Assembly: GCF_000402035.1 (NCBI RefSeq)
Contig: NC_021287.1
Coordinates: 1,488,001-1,552,000, forward strand
Direction: 5' to 3'
Source: Caballeronia insecticola
Lineage (GTDB): Bacteria > Pseudomonadota > Gammaproteobacteria > Burkholderiales > Burkholderiaceae
Length of the DNA: 64,000 nt
The stretch's first letter is position 1, and every line of letters starts with the position of its first letter. The translations under genes and the position numbers were made by a program. Shown here piece after piece: positions 7,537 through 20,152 of this stretch. Under the pieces are notes generated by a model. It had not been told where the DNA came from. It made no database searches and worked only from the letters and a program-made list of their open reading frames with translations.

Positions 7537-7797
7537 TTCTGCCTCTTTTGATCAGGCTGAGTAACAAGCTGCGATGAAATTCTCAATAGCCGCCACACGG
7601 CCATGAATTCATGTTAGCCGCAGGCATTTGCCGCTGAGTTACAAGCCCTGTAACAGATGTGAATCCTGAAACGAATATGCGGAAATGCGCCAGCCGCCCG
7701 GACCGACGCGTGGCGCGCCGTTCGCCCGGCGTCCGGGTTGCGCGCGCCCGCGCCCGCGTGGGATAGTTCCCGCTTCGCTAAAACGGATGACGGGACG

Positions 7798-8751
7798 ATG
7801 GACCTGTTGCGAAGCATGAGGATCTTTGCGCGTGTGGCGGAAGCGGCCAGCTTCACGATCGCGGCGCAGCACATGGACATCACGACGGCGCAGGCCTCGC
7901 GCGCGGTGACCGAACTCGAGACGCATCTGCGCACGCGTCTTCTGAACCGCACGACACGCCGCGTCGCGCTGACCGACGCGGGAAACCGCTATCTCGCGCG
8001 CTGCAAGGAAGTGCTCGAACTCGTCGATCTGTCGGAAGCCGAGGCCGGCGACGCGCAGACTTCGCCGAGCGGCGTGCTGCGCATGCATGCGCCCATCACG
8101 TTCGGACATCACTATGTGGTGCCTGCGCTGACGCGCTATCTGGAGCAGCATCCGCAAGTGCGCGTCGAGCTGACGCTGTCGCAACATGTGCCCGACATGC
8201 TCGACGAAGGCTTCGACGTTTTCCTGCAAGTCACCACATCCGCCCTTCCCGATTCCGCGCTCGTCTCCACGAAGATTTGCTCGATGCCGAGCGTGCTGTG
8301 CGCGTCGCCCGCGTATCTGGAAAAAGCGGGCGCGCCGCACAATCTCGAAGACTTGCCGAGACACGCGTGCCTGCAAATGGTCACGACGTTTTTCCCGATC
8401 GACCGATGGATTTTCGAAGGTCCGGGCGGCCCCGTCGCGGTGGATCTGGAACCGGGCCGTCTGCGCGTGAATTCGGCCGATGCGGTCGCCGTCGCGCTGG
8501 CGGACGGCCTCGGCATCGCCCCGCTGCCGATGCTCGCCGCGCTGCCGTGGCTGCAAAGCGGCGCGCTCGTGCGCGTGCTGCCCGAGTGGGAACTCCAGAC
8601 CATGACCATCTATGCGATGTATGCGTCGCGCCAATATCTCGACGCGAAAATCCGCACCTGGGTCGCGTTTTTGCGCGAATACGTCGAAGAGACGCTGGCG
8701 AACGAACCCGCCTGCGCCGCCGGCAAAACTTCACATCGTAAGACCAATTAA
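7798..8751 (+). CDS. LysR-family transcriptional regulator
   Basis: A 317-residue regulator. Residues 1-60 form the winged helix-turn-helix (MRIFARVAEAASFTIAA, then ASRAVTELETHLRTRLLNRT), and residues 90-300 the periplasmic-binding-protein-like effector domain. It belongs to the CrgA/AaeR-like group that starts MDLLRSMRIF. The start at 7798 is fixed by this family opening. It is transcribed away from the PXPV gene, so the 260-base gap between them (7537-7797) is a divergent control region. The target is not evident; the next gene downstream is the TpsA-like gene, 152 bases away on the same strand. Confidence 0.9.
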   Translation: MDLLRSMRIFARVAEAASFTIAAQHMDITTAQASRAVTELETHLRTRLLNRTTRRVALTDAGNRYLARCKEVLELVDLSEAEAGDAQTSPSGVLRMHAPITFGHHYVVPALTRYLEQHPQVRVELTLSQHVPDMLDEGFDVFLQVTTSALPDSALVSTKICSMPSVLCASPAYLEKAGAPHNLEDLPRHACLQMVTTFFPIDRWIFEGPGGPVAVDLEPGRLRVNSADAVAVALADGLGIAPLPMLAALPWLQSGALVRVLPEWELQTMTIYAMYASRQYLDAKIRTWVAFLREYVEETLANEPACAAGKTSHRKTN

Positions 8752-8903
8752 GTAGTCAGGTGCGTGGCCGAACGCACACAGCCCGCACGCGCGCGCATTC
8801 TCTAAACGCGTAGTTGCAAGCATGATTCGGAACACTAAACTGCTTGATGGTGCGCCCGCATTCGTTCCCCACGGTGCAGCGCAACAGAAAGGGGTCGGCC
8901 GAC

Positions 8904-11303
8904 ATGATCAAGACTCTGCGCGCGGGCGCCGCGTCCCCCGCGCTGCGGCTGTGCGTCGCCACGCTTTTAAGCGCGACGTGCGCGCACGCGCATGCGGGGC
9001 CGGGCGGCGCGCACGTCGTCGCGGGGTCCGGATCGGTCACGACGAGCGGCGCCAGCACCACCATCCAGCAGAACAGCAACCGGCTCGCCATCGACTGGAA
9101 TTCGTTCAGCACGCGGCCCGGCGAGTCCGTCACGTTCAATCAGCCGGGCGCGAACGCGATCGCGCTCAACCGCGTCGTCGGGCCGAGACCGTCGGCGCTG
9201 TTCGGCAAGCTGAATGCGAACGGCCAGGTTTTCATCGTCAATCCGAACGGCGTGATTTTCGGGCCGGGCGCGCAGGTCAATGTCGGCGGATTGCTGGCAT
9301 CGACGCTCAATCTCTCCACCAGCGATTTCATGAGCGGCCATTACGCATTCGCCGACGATGGCCGCCGCGGCTGGCGCGAGCGTCACTGGCATCGCGGTCA
9401 TGATCGCGACGATGGCGCGGCCGTCGTCAATCTCGGCTCGATCACGAGCGCGCCGGGCGGCTACGTCGCGCTGATCGGGGCGCGCGCGATCAACGCCGGC
9501 ACGATCAACACGCCCGATGGCGTCGCCGCGCTCGCCGCCGGTGAACGGATCGCGGTCACTTTGGGCGACCACAGCATGATTGGCCTCTCGGTCGAGCGCG
9601 GCACGCTCCACGCGCTCGCCGCGAATCACGGACTCATTCAGGCCGATGGCGGCCAGGCGTGGCTCAGCGCGAACGCCGAAGACGCGCTGTTCGCGAGCGT
9701 CGTCAACAACACCGGCATCATCCGCGCGCACAGTGCCGTCAGCGAGAACGGCGTGATCCGGCTCGTGGCCGATGGCGGCATCGTGCGCGTCGGCGGCACG
9801 CTCGATGCGTCCGCGCCGAACAACGGGAATGGCGGCGTCATCGAGACGTCGGGAACGCAGGTGCGCGTCGCGCAAAACGCGACGATCACCACGGCGGCCG
9901 CAGCGGGACACACCGGGACGTGGCGCATTGCGAGCGACTTCGCCGCGCTCGTCGGCTCGGGCAACCGCTTCGACCAGCGCTTCGGCACGATTCAAGGCAC
10001 GACGCTCTCGCGCGTGCTCGACTCGACCAACGTCAGCATCAGCGCGTCCGCGCCCGCCGGTTTCCAGCCGTTCGGCTTCGTATTGATCGACGGGCCGCTC
10101 GCGTGGCGCAGCGCGAACACGCTGTCGCTCGCCGCGCAAAACGGCATCGTGCTCGCGGCGCCGGTCAGCGCGCCGAACGGCACGCTCGCTTTGTCCGCCG
10201 GGAGCAGCGCAATCCAGCGCGCGCCGATCGACGCAGCCCGTCTCGCGCTGCAAGGCGGCACGGGGAACTACACGCTGTCGAACGCGGGGAACCGCATCGG
10301 CACGCTTGCCGCGAATGCCGCGTCGGTCGTCGTCAACAGCGCCGCGCCGATGACGATCGGCAACGTCGCCGGACTCGCGGGCGTCGCGGCGAGCGGCGCA
10401 GTGACGCTCGCGGCGCCGTTGCTTACGCTTGTCGCGCCGGTGTCGAGCCGGGCGAGCGGCACGGCCATCACGCTCGCGTCCGCTTCGCTCGACAATCGCG
10501 CGGGCGCGCAGGCACTCGTTACGCCCAACGGCCGCTGGCTCGTCTACTCCGATTCGCCCGACACCGACAATTTCGGCGGCCTGCAAAGCGGCAATCTCGC
10601 GCTCTGGGGCGATACATACAACGGCGCCGCCGATGCACGCGCCGCATCGTCCGGCGGCAACCGCTTCGCGTTCACCGCGTTGCAGCAGGTCACGCTCGCG
10701 GCGGTGAACCTCGACGTGCCGTTCGACACGCCGCGCACGCTCGGTCCCGACGACGTGACCGTCGCGATGCGCTACGACGGCTCGAACTACGGCCACGCCT
10801 TCGCCGACAGCGCGACGGTCCACGAACCGTTCATCTTCACCGTGACGAGCACGGGCGCGGCACCGGGCGCAGCGAGCGGCGAGTACACGATCACGATCAC
10901 GGCGACGGGCGGCCCGACCGGCTACCGGATCACGACGCAAAGCGGCACGCTGCGCATCGCCGCCGCGCCTCCGCCGCCGTCGCTGCCTCCACCGCCAACG
11001 CAGCCGAGCCAGCCGACGCAAGTCACCGGCCCCATCACGCCGCCGCCGCCGCCGCCGCCGCCGACACCGATTCAGCCGGTTCAGCCAAGCGCGCCAGATT
11101 CAATCGTGACGACGACGGCGGCGACGCTGCCCGGCATCCTCGATTCGGTGCGCACGGACGCGTCGAATCCCGCGAATCTGAGCGACGCCGCGCCGGGGCT
11201 CGAGCCGCAGTCGGCGCCGCTCGTGCAGCAGCGCACCGATTCGTCGAGCGACGGCAGCCGCCTGCCGGACGACGCATGGCCCGGCCACGTATGCCGCATG
11301 TGA
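8904..11303 (+). CDS. TpsA-like secreted protein with filamentous-haemagglutinin N-terminal domain
   Basis: A 799-residue protein with a signal peptide (to about Ala30) and a two-partner-secretion domain at about residues 35-165. The TPS signature NPNGVIFG lies at residues 113-120, preceded by NQPGANAIALNRV. The middle part continues as beta-helix-like repeats, with a YDG/MBG-like segment near residues 615-695. A proline-rich linker containing a run of eight or nine prolines follows, then a polar tail. At 799 residues it is short for a TpsA adhesin. The start was placed at the ATG preceding IKTLRAG, with a GAAAGGGG site upstream. The gene overlaps the TpsB gene by 13 bases and heads a six-gene run. 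Role as adhesin, toxin or other exoprotein is unknown; no toxin domain is visible. Confidence 0.88.
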   Translation: MIKTLRAGAASPALRLCVATLLSATCAHAHAGPGGAHVVAGSGSVTTSGASTTIQQNSNRLAIDWNSFSTRPGESVTFNQPGANAIALNRVVGPRPSALFGKLNANGQVFIVNPNGVIFGPGAQVNVGGLLASTLNLSTSDFMSGHYAFADDGRRGWRERHWHRGHDRDDGAAVVNLGSITSAPGGYVALIGARAINAGTINTPDGVAALAAGERIAVTLGDHSMIGLSVERGTLHALAANHGLIQADGGQAWLSANAEDALFASVVNNTGIIRAHSAVSENGVIRLVADGGIVRVGGTLDASAPNNGNGGVIETSGTQVRVAQNATITTAAAAGHTGTWRIASDFAALVGSGNRFDQRFGTIQGTTLSRVLDSTNVSISASAPAGFQPFGFVLIDGPLAWRSANTLSLAAQNGIVLAAPVSAPNGTLALSAGSSAIQRAPIDAARLALQGGTGNYTLSNAGNRIGTLAANAASVVVNSAAPMTIGNVAGLAGVAASGAVTLAAPLLTLVAPVSSRASGTAITLASASLDNRAGAQALVTPNGRWLVYSDSPDTDNFGGLQSGNLALWGDTYNGAADARAASSGGNRFAFTALQQVTLAAVNLDVPFDTPRTLGPDDVTVAMRYDGSNYGHAFADSATVHEPFIFTVTSTGAAPGAASGEYTITITATGGPTGYRITTQSGTLRIAAAPPPPSLPPPPTQPSQPTQVTGPITPPPPPPPPTPIQPVQPSAPDSIVTTTAATLPGILDSVRTDASNPANLSDAAPGLEPQSAPLVQQRTDSSSDGSRLPDDAWPGHVCRM

Positions 11304-13078
11304 CGCCCAGGCGTGTGCGACGCTTGCGGCCTTCCGCGCGACCGAACCGGCCGGGTCGGGGCACGTCGCGCCGCTTCGCCGCTTTGTTCGCCGCACTGGC
11401 CGCGGCCTCCGCCCGCGACATGCACGACGCCCGCGCGCAAGCAATCGCTCAGGTCGCGCAAGTGGCTCCGGCGCTGCCGAACGCGGGCAGCATCCTGCGC
11501 GAGCAGCAACAGCAGACGCCCGTCCCGCCGCCGCCATCCGACCTGCGCCTGAACGTGACGCCCGCGCCCCAACCGCCGTCCGCCGCCGCGCCGGGCGGCA
11601 TCCGCTTCGAGGTGAAAGGCTTCGAATTCACCGGCAACACGATCTTCCCGGCGGCCGAACTGCTCGACGCCGCGCGCACGCTGATCGGCCCGGATCGCTC
11701 GCTCGACGATCTCGAAAGCGCCGCGGACCGCGTGAGCGCCTATTACCGCCGGCATGGCTATCTGGTCGCGCGCGCGTATGTGCCGCCGCAGCAGATCGAC
11801 GGCGGCATCGTGCGGATCGCGGTGAGCGAGGGGCGCTACGGGCGCATCGGGATCGACAACCGGTCGCGCACGCGCGATTCCGTCGTCACGCGCTTTCTCG
11901 GCGCGCTGCATCCGGGCGATGTCATCGACGAAAGCGCCCTCACCCGCGCGACGCTGCTCGCGCAGGACGCCGCCGGCACGACGGGCGCGAACGCGACCAT
12001 CTCGCCGGGCCTGCTGCCGGGCACATCCGACATGACGCTGCAAGTGCCCGCCGCGCGGGCGCTGTCCGGCAGCGTGCAGGCCGACAACTACGGTCAGGCG
12101 ACGACCGGCACCGCGCGGCTGATCGGCGCGCTGCAATGGAACAATCCGCTCGGCATCGGCGACCAGTTGGGCGCACGGCTGCTCGGCTCGATCACCGGGC
12201 AGTTCTACGGCAACATCGGCTATACGGTGCCGGTTGGCGGCAGCGGGCTCGCGTGGGGCGTCGGCTATACGCGCTCGACGTACTCCGTCGGCGGCCAGTT
12301 CGACGAACTCGATGCCTACGGCAGCGCCAACGTCTGGTCGACGTTCGTGAGCTATCCGCTGCTGCGCTCGCCTGCGGCGAACCTGTACGCGACGGCGGGC
12401 TTCGACCACAAGCTGCTGTCCGATCATCTCGGCGCGTTCGATTCCGTCAGCGACAAGAACAGCGACGTCGGGCGCCTCGCGCTGTCGGGCAATCTCACGC
12501 TGGAAAAAAGCATCACGACGTTCGAGACGAGCATTCAGCAAGGCAACTTGCGCTTCAAGTCGCCGCAGGCGGAACAGATCGCCGCGCAGATCGCGGGCTC
12601 GTTCACGAAGTTCGTGTTCGCCATGACGCACACGCAGGTGATCGGCGCTCAGTCCAACGGCACGCAGCTGTACTTTTCGCTGACGGGACAGGCGAGCTCG
12701 CGCAATCTGGATTCGTCCGAGCAGATTTCCCTCGGCGGTCCGTATGCGGTGCGCGCCTATGCGACCGGCGATGCGCCCGTCGACGAAGCGTATATCGCCA
12801 CTTTCGAAGTGCGGCAGACGCTCAGGCAGTCGCTCGTGCCGGTGCTGATCACGCTGACGGGCTTCATCGATACCGCCGACGGCAAGGTTGTCGCGCATCC
12901 GGTCGCGCCGGGCAGCAATCACGTGCGGCTGTCGGGGCTGGGCGTCGGCGCGACCTTCGCCGCGCCGCACGACGTCCTGCTCTCGATGTCGTATGCGCAC
13001 ACGCTCGGCTATGTCCCGGCGACGCTCGGCACCGGCCACGCGAACCGCTTCTGGGTCGCACTCACGAAGTCCTTTTGA
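11291..13078 (+). CDS. TpsB-family outer-membrane transporter (ShlB/FhaC type)
   Basis: A 595-residue outer-membrane protein that should export the upstream TpsA protein. After a long basic N-terminal region and hydrophobic stretch (FAALFAALAAASA) comes a Pro/Gln-rich linker. A POTRA domain follows at about residues 98-175 (IRFEVKGFEFTGNTIFPA onward), then a 16-strand barrel domain to the C-terminus. The final residue is Phe (FWVALTKSF), the usual beta-signal for BAM insertion. The start is uncertain: 11276 or 11291 are possible; both overlap the end of the TpsA gene, consistent with translational coupling. The next gene, FecR-like, begins 18 bases downstream. Confidence 0.9.
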   Translation: MPHVTPRRVRRLRPSARPNRPGRGTSRRFAALFAALAAASARDMHDARAQAIAQVAQVAPALPNAGSILREQQQQTPVPPPPSDLRLNVTPAPQPPSAAAPGGIRFEVKGFEFTGNTIFPAAELLDAARTLIGPDRSLDDLESAADRVSAYYRRHGYLVARAYVPPQQIDGGIVRIAVSEGRYGRIGIDNRSRTRDSVVTRFLGALHPGDVIDESALTRATLLAQDAAGTTGANATISPGLLPGTSDMTLQVPAARALSGSVQADNYGQATTGTARLIGALQWNNPLGIGDQLGARLLGSITGQFYGNIGYTVPVGGSGLAWGVGYTRSTYSVGGQFDELDAYGSANVWSTFVSYPLLRSPAANLYATAGFDHKLLSDHLGAFDSVSDKNSDVGRLALSGNLTLEKSITTFETSIQQGNLRFKSPQAEQIAAQIAGSFTKFVFAMTHTQVIGAQSNGTQLYFSLTGQASSRNLDSSEQISLGGPYAVRAYATGDAPVDEAYIATFEVRQTLRQSLVPVLITLTGFIDTADGKVVAHPVAPGSNHVRLSGLGVGATFAAPHDVLLSMSYAHTLGYVPATLGTGHANRFWVALTKSF

Positions 13079-13096
13079 AGTCCTCTTGAGACCGCC

Positions 13097-13744
13097 ATGA
13101 CGCGCGCCCGACATGTCCTGCTGCTTGTCCTTCTCGCCTTCGCCGCGCGCGGCGTGTGCGCGGCGCCGGTCGCGACGATCACCGCGCTCGTCGGCAACGT
13201 CGCGATTCAGGCGGCGGGCGGCGCGCAGCGCGTGGCGACGGTCGGCGGCAACATCGACAACGGCGACACCGTGCAGACCGGCATCGCTTCCGAAATCGTG
13301 ATGATCTTCACCGACAAACAGCGCGTGTATCTGAAGCCGGGCTCGGTGTTTCGTGTCGACGATTTTCATTACGCCGCGAACGCGCCGCAGGAAGACCGCA
13401 GCTTTCTGTCGCTCGTGAAGGGCGGGCTGCGCGCGGTGGACGGGCTCGTGGCGAAGGAAGGCAAGCCCGAGAACTATCGCGTGAAGACGCCGACCTCGAC
13501 CATCGGCATACGCGGCACCGAATATTCCGTCACCGATTGCGCGAATCTCGATCCCGGCGGCAACGCGGATTGCAAGGGCGATCAGATCGTCGTCTACGAC
13601 GGGCAGATCGTCATCGTCAATCAGGTGGACCGGCGCATCGTGCGGGCGGGCGAAGGCGCGATCGTCGTGAGTCCGCTGCTGCCCTTTCGCGTGCTGCCGG
13701 CGACGCGGGTCACGCCGGTGATTCCGTCGGCGGCGTGCCGCTAG
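13097..13744 (+). CDS. periplasmic FecR-domain protein
   Basis: A 215-residue protein with a signal peptide (cleavage after about GVCA, residue 22) and a FecR domain covering about residues 30-135: NGDTVQTGIASEIVMIF, LKPGSVFRVDDF, then TPTSTIGIRGTEYSV. It lacks the cytoplasmic sigma-regulating segment and transmembrane helix of true FecR, so it is the free periplasmic type. In many beta- and gamma-proteobacteria this type sits beside CHASE2 adenylate cyclases, as it does here two genes downstream. Cys residues at about 150 and 160 could form a disulfide. Part of the tps-FecR-SulP-cyclase run; a 21-base gap leads to the SulP gene. Confidence 0.87.
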   Translation: MTRARHVLLLVLLAFAARGVCAAPVATITALVGNVAIQAAGGAQRVATVGGNIDNGDTVQTGIASEIVMIFTDKQRVYLKPGSVFRVDDFHYAANAPQEDRSFLSLVKGGLRAVDGLVAKEGKPENYRVKTPTSTIGIRGTEYSVTDCANLDPGGNADCKGDQIVVYDGQIVIVNQVDRRIVRAGEGAIVVSPLLPFRVLPATRVTPVIPSAACR

Positions 13745-13765
13745 CCGGGACCAGCCGGGACCATC

Positions 13766-16045
13766 ATGAGCGAAAACACCAGCGACGATTCGAAATTCCA
13801 CCGCACGACGCCCGCGCGCGCGGCGGCGTCGTCGTCAGACCCGCCGCATGCGGCGTTCGCCTCGTTCGGCGTGGACGCGCTCGCGGGTCTGCTCACCACG
13901 CTCATCGCGCTGTCCTACGCTGCGGGCTACGGCGCGATGATCTTCTCGGCCGGGCTCTCGCCGTGGATCGCAGCCGGCATGCCGACGGCTCTGCTCAGTT
14001 GCGTGATCGTCGCGCTGGTGGTGTCGCTCACGAGTTCGCAGCCGTTCATGATCGCCGGCCCCGATTCGAACGGCACGGCGCTCCTCGCGGGACTCGCCTC
14101 GGCGCTCGCGCTCTCGGTGCACGCCGCGGGCGGCAGCGACGACGCCGTGCTCGCCACCGTGCTCGTGCTGATTGCGGTGACATCGCTCGTGACCGGCGCG
14201 CTGCTCTTCGCGCTCGCGTACTGGAAGCGCGGCAACGCGATCCAGTACATTCCGTTTCCCGTGATCGGCGGCTTTCTCGCGGGCACGGGACTGCTGCTTC
14301 TGGAAGGCGCGCTGCGCGTGCTCACCGACCTGCCCGTCGGCATCGCGACGCCGCGCATCGTCATGCAGTTGCCGTGGTTCGCGAGCGTGCCCGCGCTCGT
14401 CGTGGGCTTGGGGCTGCTCGTGATGACGCGCATCACGCCGCCCTCGCGCTACGTGATCGTCCTGCCGTCGATGATGACGCTCGGCATCGCCATCTTCTAT
14501 ATCGGACTGGCTTCGTCGGGAAAGAGTCTCGAAGACGCCCGCCACATGGGCCTCTTGTTCCACTACGAGCCGATAGGCGGTGCGCGTCTGCCGTTCGCGC
14601 TGCTGCACGACGCGTGGCTGCCCGCGCTGTTCTCGAACGCGCCCGAGATTCTGGCGATTGCCGCCGTATCGTCGATGACCGTGCTGCTCAACACGACGAG
14701 CATCGGCGTGACGACTTCGCGCGACATCGACTTCAACCGCGAAATGCGCGCGGCCGGACTCGCGAATCTCGTTACCGGACTGGCGGGCGGGCTGGTCGGC
14801 GCGCAATCGATGACGCGCACCATGACCAACTGGCGCCTGGGCGTGCGCGACCGGCGCGCGGGCGTGCTCGCGGCGTGTTTCTCGCTCGTCGTGATCGCGT
14901 TCTTTCCGAGCCTGATGGCGCTGCTGCCGAAGCCCGTGCTGGTCGGCCTGCAGATTTTCATCGGCGCGGCGATGCTGATCGAATGGCTCATCAACTCGTT
15001 CAGACGCCTGCCGTGGCACGACTATCTGCTGATTCCCGCGATCATGGTGTGCATCGCGGTGTATGGCATCGTCGCGGGCGTGCTGCTCGGCGTGGTCGCC
15101 GCGTGTCTGCTGTTCGTCGTGCGCTATGGATGCGTCAGTTGCTTTCGCCTCGAATTCGACGGACGCGGCCGGCGCTCGAACGTCGAGCGCACCGTCGACG
15201 AAAACCGCGTGCTCGATGCGCAAGCCCACGCGCTCTACGGCGTCGCGCTGCAAGGCTTTCTGTTCTTCGGCACGGCATATTCGATCCTCACGCACATGCG
15301 CGCGCGCATCGAGGCGGCGCCCGCTGCGAAGAACGGCAGCGCGAACGTGCGCTTCGTGCTCGTCGATTTCGCGCGCGTGCACGGCGTGGATGCGTCGAGC
15401 ACCGCGAGCTTCATGCGGCTGCGTCAGGCGTGCGCGCGCGCCAACACACAACTCGTGCTGACCGGCCTTTCGCCCGCGTTGAAGGCGTGGTTCGCCAAAG
15501 GCATCACGGACCTGAAAAGTCCGGTCGGCCCGCATGTTTTCGCCGATCTCGACAACGGGCTCGAATGGATCGAAACGCAAGTGCTGAACGCGGCGCGCGC
15601 CGCGAATCCGACGTTTGCTGCGCACACGGGCACGTTTGCATCGACATTGCCCGATACGCTCGACGCACTGCGTCCGCATCTGGAAACGCTCACGCTCGCA
15701 CCCGGCGCCTACGTGTTCCGGCAAGCCGATCCGGGCGATTCGATCTACTTCGTCGAAAGCGGACGCGTGACCGTGGCGCTGTCCGTCGGCGACGAGCGCA
15801 CGCTGCGGCTGCGCAGCTTCGGCGCGGGCACGATCGTCGGCGAGATGGCGGTTTATACGGGCGCGCGGCGCAGCGCGGATGTCGTCGCCGATGAGCCGAC
15901 TGTCGTGCTGCGCCTCGCACTTTCGACGCTGCAACGCCTCGAAACCGACGATCCCGCGCTCGCCGCGCGCATGCACAAGTTCGTCGCGCGCGTGCTGGCG
16001 GCGCGGCTCGTCGTCGCGAACGAGCAGATCCGGGCGGCGCAATGA
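13766..16045 (+). CDS. SulP-family anion transporter with STAS and cyclic-nucleotide-binding domains
   Basis: A 759-residue inner-membrane protein. Residues 30-470 hold the SulP (SLC26-like) core of about 12-14 helices, with QPFMIAGPDSNGTALLAGL where substrate-site helices lie. Residues 515-620 form a STAS domain (NVRFVLVDFARVHGVDASST). Residues 640-745 form a cyclic-nucleotide-binding domain; its phosphate-binding cassette is intact, with GEMA at 692-695 and RRSA at 701-704, the Glu and Arg that hold cAMP or cGMP. Transported anion unknown: sulfate, bicarbonate or a dicarboxylate are possible. The stop overlaps the start of the adenylate cyclase gene (ATGA), which argues that the domain reads cAMP made by that enzyme. 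Confidence 0.92.
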   Translation: MSENTSDDSKFHRTTPARAAASSSDPPHAAFASFGVDALAGLLTTLIALSYAAGYGAMIFSAGLSPWIAAGMPTALLSCVIVALVVSLTSSQPFMIAGPDSNGTALLAGLASALALSVHAAGGSDDAVLATVLVLIAVTSLVTGALLFALAYWKRGNAIQYIPFPVIGGFLAGTGLLLLEGALRVLTDLPVGIATPRIVMQLPWFASVPALVVGLGLLVMTRITPPSRYVIVLPSMMTLGIAIFYIGLASSGKSLEDARHMGLLFHYEPIGGARLPFALLHDAWLPALFSNAPEILAIAAVSSMTVLLNTTSIGVTTSRDIDFNREMRAAGLANLVTGLAGGLVGAQSMTRTMTNWRLGVRDRRAGVLAACFSLVVIAFFPSLMALLPKPVLVGLQIFIGAAMLIEWLINSFRRLPWHDYLLIPAIMVCIAVYGIVAGVLLGVVAACLLFVVRYGCVSCFRLEFDGRGRRSNVERTVDENRVLDAQAHALYGVALQGFLFFGTAYSILTHMRARIEAAPAAKNGSANVRFVLVDFARVHGVDASSTASFMRLRQACARANTQLVLTGLSPALKAWFAKGITDLKSPVGPHVFADLDNGLEWIETQVLNAARAANPTFAAHTGTFASTLPDTLDALRPHLETLTLAPGAYVFRQADPGDSIYFVESGRVTVALSVGDERTLRLRSFGAGTIVGEMAVYTGARRSADVVADEPTVVLRLALSTLQRLETDDPALAARMHKFVARVLAARLVVANEQIRAAQ

Positions 16046-18276
16046 AGCGCGCACCGCGCGAGTCGTTCGCTCACACGCTCAAACGCTCGGGCCTGCGCTG
16101 GCTTCTGGGTCTCGCGATCCTCGCGGCGCTCGCGGGACACGCGCTCGCGCGTTACGACCTGCGTTTCGTCGACACGCTCGACGCGCTGATCTACGACACG
16201 AAAGTGCGCCTCTTCATGCCGCGCACGACCGATTCGCGCATCGCGATTCTCGATATCGACGAGAAAAGTCTCGCGGAACTCGGCCGCTGGCCGTGGGATC
16301 GCGCGCGCATGGCGGAACTGGTGAACGCGCTGTTCGCGCGCGAGCGCATTGCGGTGCTCGGCTTCGACATGGTGTTCGCCGAACCCGATGCAAGTTCGGG
16401 TCTCGCCGTGCTCGACGAACTCGCACGCGGCGCGCTTGCGAACAATGCCGCTTACCGCGATGCGCTCGCGCGTCTCGCGCCGCACCTCGACTACGATCAA
16501 CGCTTCGCGGATGCGCTCGCGGGTCATCCCGTCGTGCTCGGCTATTACTTCTCGAATCAGGATGTGTCGAGCGGTGCAATTCCTGCGCCGTTGATGAACG
16601 CGAGCGCGTTCGGCACGCATCCTTTCACGCTGTTCGACTGGACCAGCTACGGCGGCAATCTGCCTGCGCTGCAGAAGGCGGCGCGGCGCGCGGGCTATTT
16701 CAATCCGGTGATCGATTTCGACGGCGCCGTGCGGCGCGTGCCGCTCGTTACCGAATATCGTGACGGCATCTACGGCGCGCTCTCGCTCGAAGTGATCCGC
16801 GCGCTTTTCAACGATGCCGCAGTGACGCCGCTCTTCGACGATCCGACCGATCCCGCCGCGCCGCTCGCGGGCCTCGCACTGACGACGCCGCGCGGCATAC
16901 GCGTCATTCCCGTCGATGCCAACGGCGCGGCGCTCGTGCCCTATCGCGGCGCGGCCGGCAGCTTCCCGTATTACTCGATCGCCGACGTGCTCGCGCACCG
17001 CATTCCGCCGAACGCGCTCGCGGGCAAGGTGGTGCTCATCGGCACGACGGCGCCCGGTCTCATGGATCAGCGCACGACGCCCGTTGGCGAGGTGTATCCG
17101 GGCGTCGAGGTGAATGCGAATCTGGTGAGCGGCATGCTCGATGGCGCGATCCGCTTCCAGCCGCCTTTCGCCGCGACGCTCCAGACAATCGCGCTTGTGT
17201 TCGCCGGTCTCGCGATGATCTTTCTCTGGCCGTGGCACACGCCCGCGCGCGCGACGCTCGCGACCGCGCTTCTATTAGGCGCGATCGTCGCCGCCGATGT
17301 CTTCGTGTTCGCGCGGCTCGACTGGTCGATTCCGGCCGCCTCGCTGCTGCTCGCGGTGCTGGCGCTCTATGTGCTCAACATGTCGTACGGCTATTTCGTG
17401 GAGGCGCGCGCGAAGCGTTACTTCGCCGCGTTGTTCGGGCAGTACGTGCCGCCCGAACTCGTCGAGGAAATGAGCCGCCATCCCGAGGACTACAGCATGA
17501 CGGGCCGGCGCGCCGAACTGACCGTGCTCTTCTGCGACGTGCTCGGCTTTACCGCCATCGCTGAGACGCTCGAACCGGAAGCGCTCGCGCGCCTGATGAA
17601 CGAGTATCTCGGCACGATGACGGAAGTGATCCGCGCGCATCGCGGCACGCTCGACAAATACATGGGCGATGCGATCATGGGCTTCTGGGGCGCGCCCGTC
17701 GACGATCCGGAGCATGCGCGTCATGCGGTGGCGGCGGCGCTCGGCATGCGCGCGGCGCTCGTCGATCTGAACCGCACGCTCACGTCGCGCGGCTGGCCGA
17801 CGCTGTGGATCGGCATCGGCATCAATACCGGGCCGATGACCGTCGGCGACATGGGTTCGACCGTGCGCAAGGCCTACACCGTGATGGGCGATGCGGTCAA
17901 CGTCGCCGCACGGCTCGAAGGCCTCACGCGGCGTTTCGATATCGACATCATCGTGGGCGAAGCGACGCGCGAGCAGGCGCCGGATGTTCTGTTCCGCGAG
18001 CTGGACCGCGTGCGCGTGAAGGGACGCAACGCGCCGATCGCGGTGTTCGAGCCGCAGTCGTCGAACCGTAACGCCGACGAACTCGCGCGCTGGCACGCAG
18101 CGCTTTCGCACTATCGCGCGCGTGCATGGGACGAGGCGCAGGCGCTGCTCGACGTGCTCGCGGCGCAGTATCCCGAGCGGCAACTGTATGCGTTGTATCG
18201 CAAGCGTATCGATGCGTTGCGCGGTGTCGAACTGCCCGAGGACTGGGACTGCGTGAGCGCATTCGACACCAAATAG
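16042..18276 (+). CDS. CHASE2-domain class III adenylate cyclase
   Basis: A 744-residue membrane enzyme making cAMP from ATP. An N-terminal helix (about 20-37) precedes a periplasmic CHASE2 sensor (about 45-350), then three helices (about 370-450) and a cytoplasmic class III cyclase domain (about 485-680). Catalytic residues are present: metal-binding Asp499 in LFCDVLGFT and Asp543 in DKYMGDAIMGF, adenine-selecting Lys539, and transition-state Asn620 and Arg624 in GDAVNVAARLE. Lys539 with Thr613 favours ATP over GTP. A roughly 60-residue tail follows. It overlaps the SulP gene by 4 bases and is followed after 37 bases by a phosphodiesterase gene, giving a synthesis-sensing-degradation set. 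The CHASE2 ligand is unknown. Confidence 0.93.
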   Translation: MKRAPRESFAHTLKRSGLRWLLGLAILAALAGHALARYDLRFVDTLDALIYDTKVRLFMPRTTDSRIAILDIDEKSLAELGRWPWDRARMAELVNALFARERIAVLGFDMVFAEPDASSGLAVLDELARGALANNAAYRDALARLAPHLDYDQRFADALAGHPVVLGYYFSNQDVSSGAIPAPLMNASAFGTHPFTLFDWTSYGGNLPALQKAARRAGYFNPVIDFDGAVRRVPLVTEYRDGIYGALSLEVIRALFNDAAVTPLFDDPTDPAAPLAGLALTTPRGIRVIPVDANGAALVPYRGAAGSFPYYSIADVLAHRIPPNALAGKVVLIGTTAPGLMDQRTTPVGEVYPGVEVNANLVSGMLDGAIRFQPPFAATLQTIALVFAGLAMIFLWPWHTPARATLATALLLGAIVAADVFVFARLDWSIPAASLLLAVLALYVLNMSYGYFVEARAKRYFAALFGQYVPPELVEEMSRHPEDYSMTGRRAELTVLFCDVLGFTAIAETLEPEALARLMNEYLGTMTEVIRAHRGTLDKYMGDAIMGFWGAPVDDPEHARHAVAAALGMRAALVDLNRTLTSRGWPTLWIGIGINTGPMTVGDMGSTVRKAYTVMGDAVNVAARLEGLTRRFDIDIIVGEATREQAPDVLFRELDRVRVKGRNAPIAVFEPQSSNRNADELARWHAALSHYRARAWDEAQALLDVLAAQYPERQLYALYRKRIDALRGVELPEDWDCVSAFDTK

Positions 18277-18313
18277 CGAAGTCGCGTGATAACGAAATAC
18301 TCGGGGAACGGTC

Positions 18314-19099
18314 ATGAAAATTCGCGTGCTCGGCTGCAATGGCGCTATCGGCAACAGCGGCAAAGGCGGCGGCACCACGGCGCTGCTCGTCGATCATGAT
18401 GTGCTGATCGATGCGGGCACCGGCGTCGCCGTGCTCGGCGATGATGAACTCGCGCGCATCGATCATGTGTTCCTCACGCATTCGCATCTCGATCACATGG
18501 CGTATTTGCCGTTGATGATCGACGCCGTGGGCGAGGTTCGCAATGAAGCGCACAACGAGCCGCTCATCGTGCACGCGAGCCGCGCGACGCTCGATATTCT
18601 GCATGCGCATGTCTTCAACAATCTGATCTGGCCGGACTTCACGCGCATTCCTTCCGCCGATGCACCCGGCGTGCGATTCGAGGCGCTGGAAGTGGGCGAG
18701 CGCGTGGTGCTGAACGGCCGCAGCATCGTTGCGTTGCCGGCGTGTCATTCGGTGCCGGCGATGGGTTACGCGCTATGCAGCGACACGGCCTCGCTCGCGT
18801 TCAGCGGCGACACGACGACCAATCCCGCGTTCTGGTCCGCGATTGCCACGCTGCCGGGCCTGCGCCATGTGATCGTCGAAACCGCGTTTCGCGACGAGCA
18901 AATCGCGTTGGCGCACGCGGCGCATCATTACTGTCCGAGGCTTATCGCGGAGGATTTGCGCGGCGTCGAGATGCAGGCGGAATTGCTGATCTCGCATCTG
19001 AAACCGCCGCACGGCGCGCAGATTCTCGAAGAACTGCGCGCCGCGTTGCCGGACATCGCGTTGCGTGCGTTGATCGACGGCGAAGCCCTGGATGTGTGA
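18314..19099 (+). CDS. metallo-beta-lactamase-fold 3',5'-cyclic-nucleotide phosphodiesterase (class II-like)
   Basis: A 261-residue cytosolic metallo-hydrolase. The metal-binding signature HSHLDH lies at residues 56-61, and later ligands are visible in ACHSVPAMGYAL, FSGDTTTNPAFW and ISHLKPPHG. The opening MKIRVLGCNGAIG and spacing match the group commonly annotated as 3',5'-cyclic-nucleotide phosphodiesterase in beta-proteobacteria (COG5212-like); activity here is inferred from the family and strongly supported by position, 37 bases after an adenylate cyclase. A GGGGA ribosome site precedes the ATG. The fold also contains RNases and other hydrolases, so the substrate remains to be shown. Confidence 0.8.
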   Translation: MKIRVLGCNGAIGNSGKGGGTTALLVDHDVLIDAGTGVAVLGDDELARIDHVFLTHSHLDHMAYLPLMIDAVGEVRNEAHNEPLIVHASRATLDILHAHVFNNLIWPDFTRIPSADAPGVRFEALEVGERVVLNGRSIVALPACHSVPAMGYALCSDTASLAFSGDTTTNPAFWSAIATLPGLRHVIVETAFRDEQIALAHAAHHYCPRLIAEDLRGVEMQAELLISHLKPPHGAQILEELRAALPDIALRALIDGEALDV

Positions 19100-19105
19100 T
19101 GCCGT

Positions 19106-20152
19106 TCAGCGCGCGCCCGCCGCCACACGACGTTCGATGGATCGCACATTGTTGCCGACCGGCGCGGCATTCACCGGCGCCGCCGGCAATAACTTGCCTT
19201 GCAACATTGCGCGCACCGTTCCCGCGATCAACAGGCCGATCACGACATTGCCCAGCACGAAAGCCACCGGCGCGATCCATTGCATCGGGCCTGTTGCGCC
19301 GCGTTCGAGCATGCGGATTGCCATCGTCGGCAACGCGGCGGCGCCGAAGCTCACGGCCCAGTACGAAGGCGTGAACGCGCTTTGTCGAATCCACGGAACG
19401 AGCCGCGTGAGCGTCAGTGCCTGATAAATCCCGTAGCCGAGCAGCATGTACGCGAACAAGTCCGGCACGCCATGCGTGATCGCGAGATACGACACGCCTC
19501 CGACGACCGGCGGCGCAAGCTGGATGCCGAGCGTCGGGCGCAGCGCCTCGGGCAGCGGTTCGTGCACGGCGGCGCGATGCAGCACGATGGATTCGATCGC
19601 GATCCACGAGAACACGCCCGCGCCGAAGAAGAGCGCGCCAATCTGCGTGAAGCCGAGCGCCGCGGCCGCCGTTGCCGCAACGAAGCTCGGCGCGACCGTC
19701 GGGAGATAGATGGCGGGCGTCGTCAGTTCCGGTTTGCGGCCGCCTTGCCAGAAGCGTCCGTGCAGATACGCGCCCAATACCAGTTGACTCGATACGCCGA
19801 TCGCGAAGAGCGCGATGGCCAGCTCGCGCGAATAGGCCTGCACGGCCTGGGCGACGAGCATCGTCGAAACGGGGGCCAAGGCGGCGAACGAAGACTGCAC
19901 CGGATGTTGCATCTCGGCGATTGCCGCATCGCGCTGCACGAGCCATTTGCGCGCATACGCCGCGACAACGACGAGCCACACGACGAGCGACGCCGCCGTC
20001 AGAAGCGCCGGCACGGCATCGGGGATGCTCCATACGCGAGCCGCCGCGCGCCATGCGCCCGCAAGCGCCAGCCCACCGACTGCGACTCCGAAAAACGCGA
20101 CCGGCATCGGCGCGTGACCGTTCGAATGATCCGTACCCTTGTTGCTGTTCAT
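19106..20152 (-). CDS. TehA/SLAC1-family (TDT) transporter
   Basis: A 348-residue inner-membrane protein with ten predicted helices. The opening PMPVAFFGVAVGGLALAGAWR is characteristic of the TehA/TDT family, structurally like the plant anion channel SLAC1; members move anions such as C4-dicarboxylates, or confer tellurite resistance. YLPTVAPSFVAATAAAALG in the middle also fits, with a Phe in the pore-helix region. TehB is not adjacent. It ends 6 bases from the end of the phosphodiesterase gene, so the two converge. AAGGG precedes the ATG closely. Confidence 0.85.
   Translation of the reverse strand: MNSNKGTDHSNGHAPMPVAFFGVAVGGLALAGAWRAAARVWSIPDAVPALLTAASLVVWLVVVAAYARKWLVQRDAAIAEMQHPVQSSFAALAPVSTMLVAQAVQAYSRELAIALFAIGVSSQLVLGAYLHGRFWQGGRKPELTTPAIYLPTVAPSFVAATAAAALGFTQIGALFFGAGVFSWIAIESIVLHRAAVHEPLPEALRPTLGIQLAPPVVGGVSYLAITHGVPDLFAYMLLGYGIYQALTLTRLVPWIRQSAFTPSYWAVSFGAAALPTMAIRMLERGATGPMQWIAPVAFVLGNVVIGLLIAGTVRAMLQGKLLPAAPVNAAPVGNNVRSIERRVAAGAR

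Follow-up and report, generated by a model that had tools for sequence, protein, structure and literature searches.

Why should the genes of a two-partner secretion (TPS) system lie in a single run with genes that would make, read and erase cyclic AMP (cAMP)? The question is raised by a 64,000-nucleotide stretch of the Caballeronia insecticola genome (assembly GCF_000402035.1, contig NC_021287.1, positions 1,488,001 to 1,552,000), hereafter the window, in which six genes at 8904–19099 encode the secretion pair TpsA and TpsB, a FecR-domain protein, a SulP-family anion transporter with a cyclic-nucleotide-binding (CNB) domain, a CHASE2-domain class III nucleotide cyclase, and a cyclic-nucleotide phosphodiesterase (PDE). 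The original prediction, made from the letters of the window, saw in them a self-contained cAMP circuit gating anion transport. The recurrent core of TPS pair, FecR protein and cyclase is more striking than the make-read-erase set, and the locus is read here, tentatively and with slightly less than even confidence, as a conserved cell-surface signalling unit built on two-partner secretion, wherein the FecR protein would sense TpsB/TpsA and drive the CHASE2 cyclase.

The compact, same-strand arrangement with overlaps and short gaps that had been described for the six genes is borne out by both coordinates and Pfam domains, all of them scoring over threshold. TpsA (799 amino acids (aa); 8904–11303, + strand, as for all six genes) combines a signal peptide-like start, an N-terminal TPS domain at residues 32–299 (PF05860, 126 bits, cut-off 33.5), and a proline-rich C-terminus; its end is overlapped by 13 bases by the start of TpsB (595 aa; 11291–13078), the outer-membrane partner, with POTRA_2 (PF08479, 66 bits) and ShlB barrel (PF03865, 83 bits) domains, and by these features the adjacent genes are a two-partner secretion (type Vb) pair. 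TpsB partners export their TpsA. The FecR-domain protein (215 aa; 13097–13744) scores above the Pfam FecR cut-off and, as read by eye, has a signal peptide-like start and no other membrane segment, so placed that it is probably periplasmic. The SulP gene (759 aa; 13766–16045) overlaps the cyclase gene (744 aa; 16042–18276) by 4 bases, and a gap of 37 bases separates the latter from the PDE gene (261 aa; 18314–19099). Ratios of non-synonymous to synonymous substitution rates (dN/dS) of 0.10–0.28 against three relatives were obtained for all six genes, which look to be under purifying selection. A sigma-70 promoter and terminator scan of 8600–19300 returned nothing above shuffled sequences (promoter-like, 1 vs 1.3; terminator-like, 4 vs 7.2).

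Whether the six genes belong together can be judged from their relatives. With presence of the cyclase set at E <= 1e-100, the gene was found in 23 of 58 Caballeronia genomes, and all 23 loci, which were not pre-selected, also hold TpsA, TpsB and FecR; across 398 genomes drawn from the family, the cyclase occurs in 33 (23 Caballeronia and 10 from other genera), with TpsA, TpsB and FecR at 29 of the 33 loci. The co-occurrence expected by the original prediction is thus upheld, the block being kept in the 23 genus genomes, with losses of SulP or PDE, and complete at six loci from another four genera (L074–L079), for a total of five genera with the full set, Caballeronia included. Among the 29 family loci chosen as TPS-type (the window, L031–L046, and L068–L079), TpsA, TpsB, FecR and cyclase are present in all 29 (TpsA of L038 is truncated by a contig end), an intact SulP is kept by 20, the other nine having lost it or holding a broken copy, and PDE is present in 23 and absent in six. 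On the cyclase tree, at least seven state changes are needed for SulP and three for PDE. Absence of SulP in L036, L045, L068 and L070, four of the nine SulP-less loci, represents loss because remnants remain there. In L076, TpsB has been relocated behind the PDE yet still lies inside the block, which argues for a functional set over a frozen order; Pfam supports the domains of this moved TpsB, as well as those of all six L078 proteins. By gene content, the six genes are a unit conserved beyond chance, in which TPS pair, FecR protein and cyclase are the constant core, and reader and eraser are exchangeable. Across L074–L079, TpsA ranges from 752 to 1522 aa, and the other five proteins are nearly constant in length.

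Does the core recur outside the family's TPS clade? A pool of 141 cyclase loci was assembled from named genomes (the best 80 of 585 matches, leaning to near relatives; 79 used, L084 being a duplicate of L041), 60 of the 118 matching genomes of the class besides the window's (taken down the list, skipping G669, G783 and G516, one locus per genome), and four TPS-less family loci, minus two further duplicates, L178 (= L114) and L191 (= L121); the tree described below does not include L087. PP2C or FHA genes accompany the cyclase in 77 of these loci, FecR in 28, and TpsB in at least 14 (a lower bound, short contigs being scored as without), and 33 show none of these. The statement that FecR-type proteins often neighbour CHASE2 cyclases accordingly stands for 28 of 141 loci but describes a minority, PP2C or FHA being commoner. 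FecR is found in 10 of the 14 TPS loci vs 18 of the 127 others (Fisher p = 1.2e-5, loci treated as independent), and PP2C/FHA in none of the 14 vs 77 of the 127. On a quick tree of 169 cyclases, the TPS-bearing rows form six clades, namely, the family, a nine-row clade (Massilia, Duganella, Pseudoduganella, Janthinobacterium, Herbaspirillum, and Limnobacter), and four clades of one or two rows. Both cyclase trees are quick LG+G4 trees, the earlier, smaller one giving three TPS changes (long branches flagged) vs six, and parsimony counts such changes without separating gain from loss; on this footing, the placement of TPS beside the cyclase arose or was kept several times. Gene orders differ among the clades (TpsB-TpsA-FecR-cyclase, cyclase-TpsB-TpsA-FecR, cyclase-TpsA-FecR-TpsB, and others), as do orientations, and the nearest TPS or FecR frame lies within 300 bases of the cyclase frame, stop to stop, in 11 of 12 loci (474 in L158). 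Pfam supports the TPS, POTRA_2/ShlB and FecR assignments in L154, L159 and L163, and that of FecR in L158. Two Duganella loci (L138 and L150) carry a second TpsA-like gene after TpsB.

These data bear directly on the possibility that a TPS operon and a cyclase-PDE pair simply became neighbours, without shared function, and were kept so by common descent. Much of the conservation does lie within one family, and elsewhere the cyclase is mostly found with different partners (PP2C/FHA, 77/141) or with none seen (33/141); nevertheless, TPS adjoins the cyclase in six distinct clades among which gene order is shuffled, the spacing is tight in nearly all loci examined (<=300 bases in 11/12), and the displaced TpsB of L076 has remained in its block, all of which make mere neighbourhood quite improbable. 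The C. insecticola genome holds three POTRA_2 matches above cut-off in 6.96 Mb; arithmetic from this density, relatedness aside, gives about one locus in 100 as the chance expectation for a TPS gene lying some 10 kb or less from any chosen gene.

How might a secretion pair be coupled to a cyclase? The FecR protein, which has a FecR-type periplasmic domain, yields a model closest to the cell-surface signalling domain of PupR and to an anti-sigma factor. PupR-type domains read an outer-membrane receptor, with which the title of PDB entry 6ovk agrees. The FecA-FecR and PupB-PupR (PDB 6ovk) systems thus share with the window, by fold, a FecR-type periplasmic signalling domain, whereas the window block has TpsB and a cyclase and is without the anti-sigma part, sigma factor and TonB receptor of those systems; Pfam identified no sigma factor among the six genes and two flanking genes. 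In its first half, the FecR model (13097–13744) is similar to a domain for cell-surface anchoring (5ix9), and in NCBIfam the protein matched a retention module below threshold. By analogy with the sensing of an occupied TonB receptor by FecR or PupR, TpsB would export TpsA, as expected of its family, the periplasmic FecR protein would sense the state of TpsB/TpsA and relay it to the CHASE2 domain of the cyclase, and the cyclase, its residues being intact, would form cAMP in the cytoplasm; a SulP-CNB protein, from the locus or a paralogue, would then bind cAMP and alter anion flux, and the PDE would reset the signal. More broadly, and with somewhat more reservation, it is conceivable that in several lineages the TPS pair acts as a cell-surface receptor whose state (idle, exporting, or bound) is sensed by a periplasmic FecR adaptor, which in turn controls a CHASE2 cyclase; surface-protein export or contact would in this way be signalled through cAMP, and the cAMP readers downstream, a cAMP-gated SulP anion transporter among them, would be interchangeable.

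A partial parallel exists in Sinorhizobium meliloti, in which the outer-membrane barrel NsrA feeds CHASE2 cyclases (PMC13001267). The NsrA-CyaD1/CyaD2/CyaK-Clr pathway shares with the proposed unit a barrel feeding such cyclases and a FecR-domain gene numbered beside cyaD1, and differs in that its output is the CRP-type regulator Clr; in the matched passages of its descriptions, NsrA is not termed a TPS partner and SulP is not mentioned (PMC13001267; PMC5498481). That FecR-domain gene, smc02177, is reported to be required for infection control (PMC5498481).

Several observations weigh against the proposed TPS-FecR-cyclase signalling unit. The FecR protein, at 215 aa, consists of the FecR domain only, without an anti-sigma part; 35 of the 58 Caballeronia genomes lack the cyclase at the cut-off used; four loci of one other genus (L080–L083) have the cyclase without TPS or FecR; and, outside the family's TPS clade, 127 of the 141 loci show no TPS, and among the 14 that do, 4 lack FecR within the stretch available. 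Likewise, the locus can do without SulP and PDE, as the want of an intact copy in nine and six of the 29 loci indicates, and smc02177, by number next to cyaD1, is reported to be dispensable for plant-signal perception (PMC5498481). What was observed directly is which genes are present, their conservation, their reappearance in other arrangements, the intact catalytic and binding residues, and the resemblance in fold; every signalling step is inferred from synteny, residues and fold.

Are the three cAMP functions themselves credible? CHASE2 domains are located outside the cytoplasm, and that of the cyclase (PF05226, 189 bits; residues 34–389, 16141–17208, from Pfam) is taken as the extracytoplasmic sensor region, followed by a catalytic domain (PF00211, Guanylate_cyc, 72 bits). 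Residues D499, K539, D543, N620 and R624, which had been listed as intact, are invariant in a 12-sequence alignment, as is T613, absent from that list; we take these to be the two metal-binding Asp, the Lys/Thr base-selecting pair, and the transition-state Asn and Arg. The protein has the residues of a class III cyclase, the choice of cAMP over cGMP as product being a prediction. In SulP, Sulfate_transp (PF00916, 94 bits) and STAS (PF01740, 33 bits) domains place the protein in the SulP/SLC26 family, together with its counterparts in L078 and L164, and are joined by a cNMP_binding domain (PF00027, 69 bits; residues 643–725, 15692–15940, + strand) that aligns with a protein kinase A chain (5j3u). 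The GEMA and RRSA motifs noted earlier in this domain are indeed intact, with G692-E693-M694-A695 and R702-S703-A704 invariant in 13 SulP sequences; GE...R-S/A-A is the phosphate-binding cassette of cyclic-nucleotide-binding domains. The sulfate permease subfamily cut-off of TIGR00815 was missed by SulP (113 vs 380 bits).

The PDE is probably of class II type, with a metallo-beta-lactamase fold; it matches Lactamase_B_2 and the PDEase_II profile (48 bits, cut-off 23.7) and does not reach the cut-off of NF041851, the NCBIfam cyclic nucleotide-degrading phosphodiesterase (25.9 vs 400 bits). Its HSHLDH stretch, recognized from the outset, occupies residues 56–61, and H56, H58, D60, H61, H145, D166 and H228 are invariant in 11 sequences; HXHLDH is given as the motif of class II cyclic-nucleotide phosphodiesterases (PMC9293780). 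Yeast PDE1 (class II; 4ojv) and YhfI and Rv1339 (atypical class II; PMC9293780) have this motif and apparently the fold in common with the window PDE, which also shares an FN.LIWPD(F/L)T stretch with PDE1, and which differs from PDE1 in being 25% identical, bacterial, and encoded beside its cyclase. With residues intact and Pfam domains in place, all three functions are plausible by sequence, the cyclase being the probable maker, SulP the probable reader, and the PDE the probable eraser of cAMP.

It is the self-contained nature of the circuit gating anion transport that finds no support: SulP is gone or broken in nine of the 29 loci and PDE absent from six, TPS, FecR and cyclase stay, and a SulP-CNB paralogue lies off the locus. 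This second SulP-STAS-CNB gene, with an intact cassette and 47–49% identity to the locus SulP within the genus, is found on another contig of the C. insecticola genome (L164:1268-3466), and the reader is therefore not confined to the locus. Across the genus, the paralogue is intact in 22 of 23 cyclase-positive vs 7 of 35 cyclase-negative genomes (Fisher p = 1e-8, genomes taken as independent and their size ignored; a broken copy in G034 and a fragment in G008 were scored absent). Each of the nine genomes with a lost or broken SulP at the locus has retained it, and the sole cyclase-positive genome without it (G019) retains the locus SulP; as one copy or the other is kept, none of the 23 cyclase-positive genomes is without an intact SulP-CNB gene. 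In L072 and L073 the paralogue is convergent to the cyclase, with another cyclase-like stretch (33% identity) farther on, and the SulP copy of G034 (a 3.7 Mb genome) carries two in-frame stops.

Of the 11 cNMP-binding domains of the C. insecticola genome (E <= 0.001), which also encodes two class III cyclase domains, the canonical cassette is found by eye in the two SulP proteins only, the remaining proteins resembling, by eye, CRP/FNR-type regulators, thioredoxin-reductase-like proteins, and ABC proteins; SulP is for this reason the strongest contender for the role of cAMP receptor in the cell, although other receptors may do without the cassette. The same survey informs a scheme running in the output direction, in which the CHASE2 cyclase would sense an outside cue alone, cAMP would control TpsA production or surface retention, the FecR protein would hold or mature TpsA, and the TPS pair would be an effector. 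As no CRP-type site was found upstream of TpsA, such sites occur in the window at chance (16 vs 15.1 expected), and the CRP/FNR-like members of the cNMP-binding set all lack a canonical cassette by eye, this scheme seems rather unlikely.

SulP also invites an anion-feedback loop, in which a bicarbonate-stimulated Lys/Thr (IIIb) cyclase would respond to the anion that SulP moves, the action of cAMP on SulP would close the loop, and the TPS pair would be a passenger. Lys/Thr (IIIb) cyclases are stimulated by bicarbonate in the cases studied. In keeping with such a loop, K539 and T613 are invariant in the 12 cyclases; the best solved relatives of the cyclase include the bacterial cyclases 3r5g, 2w01 and 1wc0, some of which respond to bicarbonate; and SulP bears a weak likeness to BicA (55 bits, cut-off 880). 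The Lys/Thr pair is, however, general to the cyclase family and has no special bearing on SulP loci, no SulP match of at least 60 bits occurs in the 143 stretches outside the family's TPS clade (79 + 60 + 4; four weak matches, 28–49 bits), and SulP is lost from nine of the 29 TPS-clade loci while TPS stays. Anion feedback is, on balance, improbable as an account of the locus.

What, then, is the older part of the block? Of 101 relatives searched for the PDE, 44 gave a match, and 26 of these fall outside the genus (G080 weakly); G008 has fragments only. Within 20 order loci, the PDE adjoins a cyclase of 46–55% identity in 14 and occurs without a cyclase in six, and 12 of the 14 also have a CHASE2-kinase, PP2C and FHA. 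The order block (L054:6616-16405 and similar blocks among L048–L067) comprises, by Pfam, a CHASE2-Ser/Thr kinase, PP2C, FHA, CHASE2-cyclase, PDE, and a GAF-MshEN-T2SSE ATPase, along with a CNB-rhodanese protein in some blocks (L067; Pfam), which may serve as their reader; the block places two CHASE2 sensors side by side, one with a kinase and the other with a cyclase as its output. The order-wide cluster has in common with the window an adjacent homologous cyclase and PDE and, in some cases, another CNB protein as a possible reader, and differs in that, among the 77 loci with PP2C or FHA, TpsB occurs in none and FecR in one, with no strong SulP match. From this distribution, cyclase and PDE may be an older pair around which the rest of the block was exchanged.

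As to whether the system is new, most CHASE2 cyclases of the Campylobacterota are reported to be encoded together with a phosphodiesterase for cAMP and with proteins of the FecR-domain and TPR types (PMC9239204). The CHASE2 cyclase, the phosphodiesterase and the FecR-domain protein are common to this cluster and the window; the cluster differs in its TPR protein, and a TPS pair and a SulP reader go unmentioned in the section that describes it; no TPR family was detected by Pfam at E <= 0.001 in the six window proteins or the two flanking ones. By gene context, the combination of make, erase and FecR is thus already known in print. The original prediction knew of no described system of this exact make-up, which holds for the open-licence literature searched, where no account of a TPS-linked CHASE2 cyclase or a bacterial SulP-CNB reader was among the matches listed, and needs qualifying in light of the Campylobacterota cluster.

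Two flanking genes were not counted in the unit, namely, an upstream LysR regulator (7738–8751, +), a conserved neighbour in the window's subclade of the genus, and a SLAC1-type anion channel (19106–20152, −), a convergent neighbour within the genus. In L047 (genome G008), only remnants of the block survive between LysR and SLAC1.

Adhesins and other proteins of the cell surface are the familiar cargo of TPS systems, and the established partners of FecR-type signalling are TonB receptors and sigma factors. If true, the TPS-FecR-cyclase unit would give the TPS pair a receptor role, provide FecR-type signalling with a second-messenger output, and supply a testable partner for the CHASE2 domain; the SulP protein with its cyclic-nucleotide-binding domain would, likewise, be a bacterial transporter directly gated by cAMP. 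In Caballeronia-related soil bacteria, a TPS export system may signal to the inside of the cell via cAMP.

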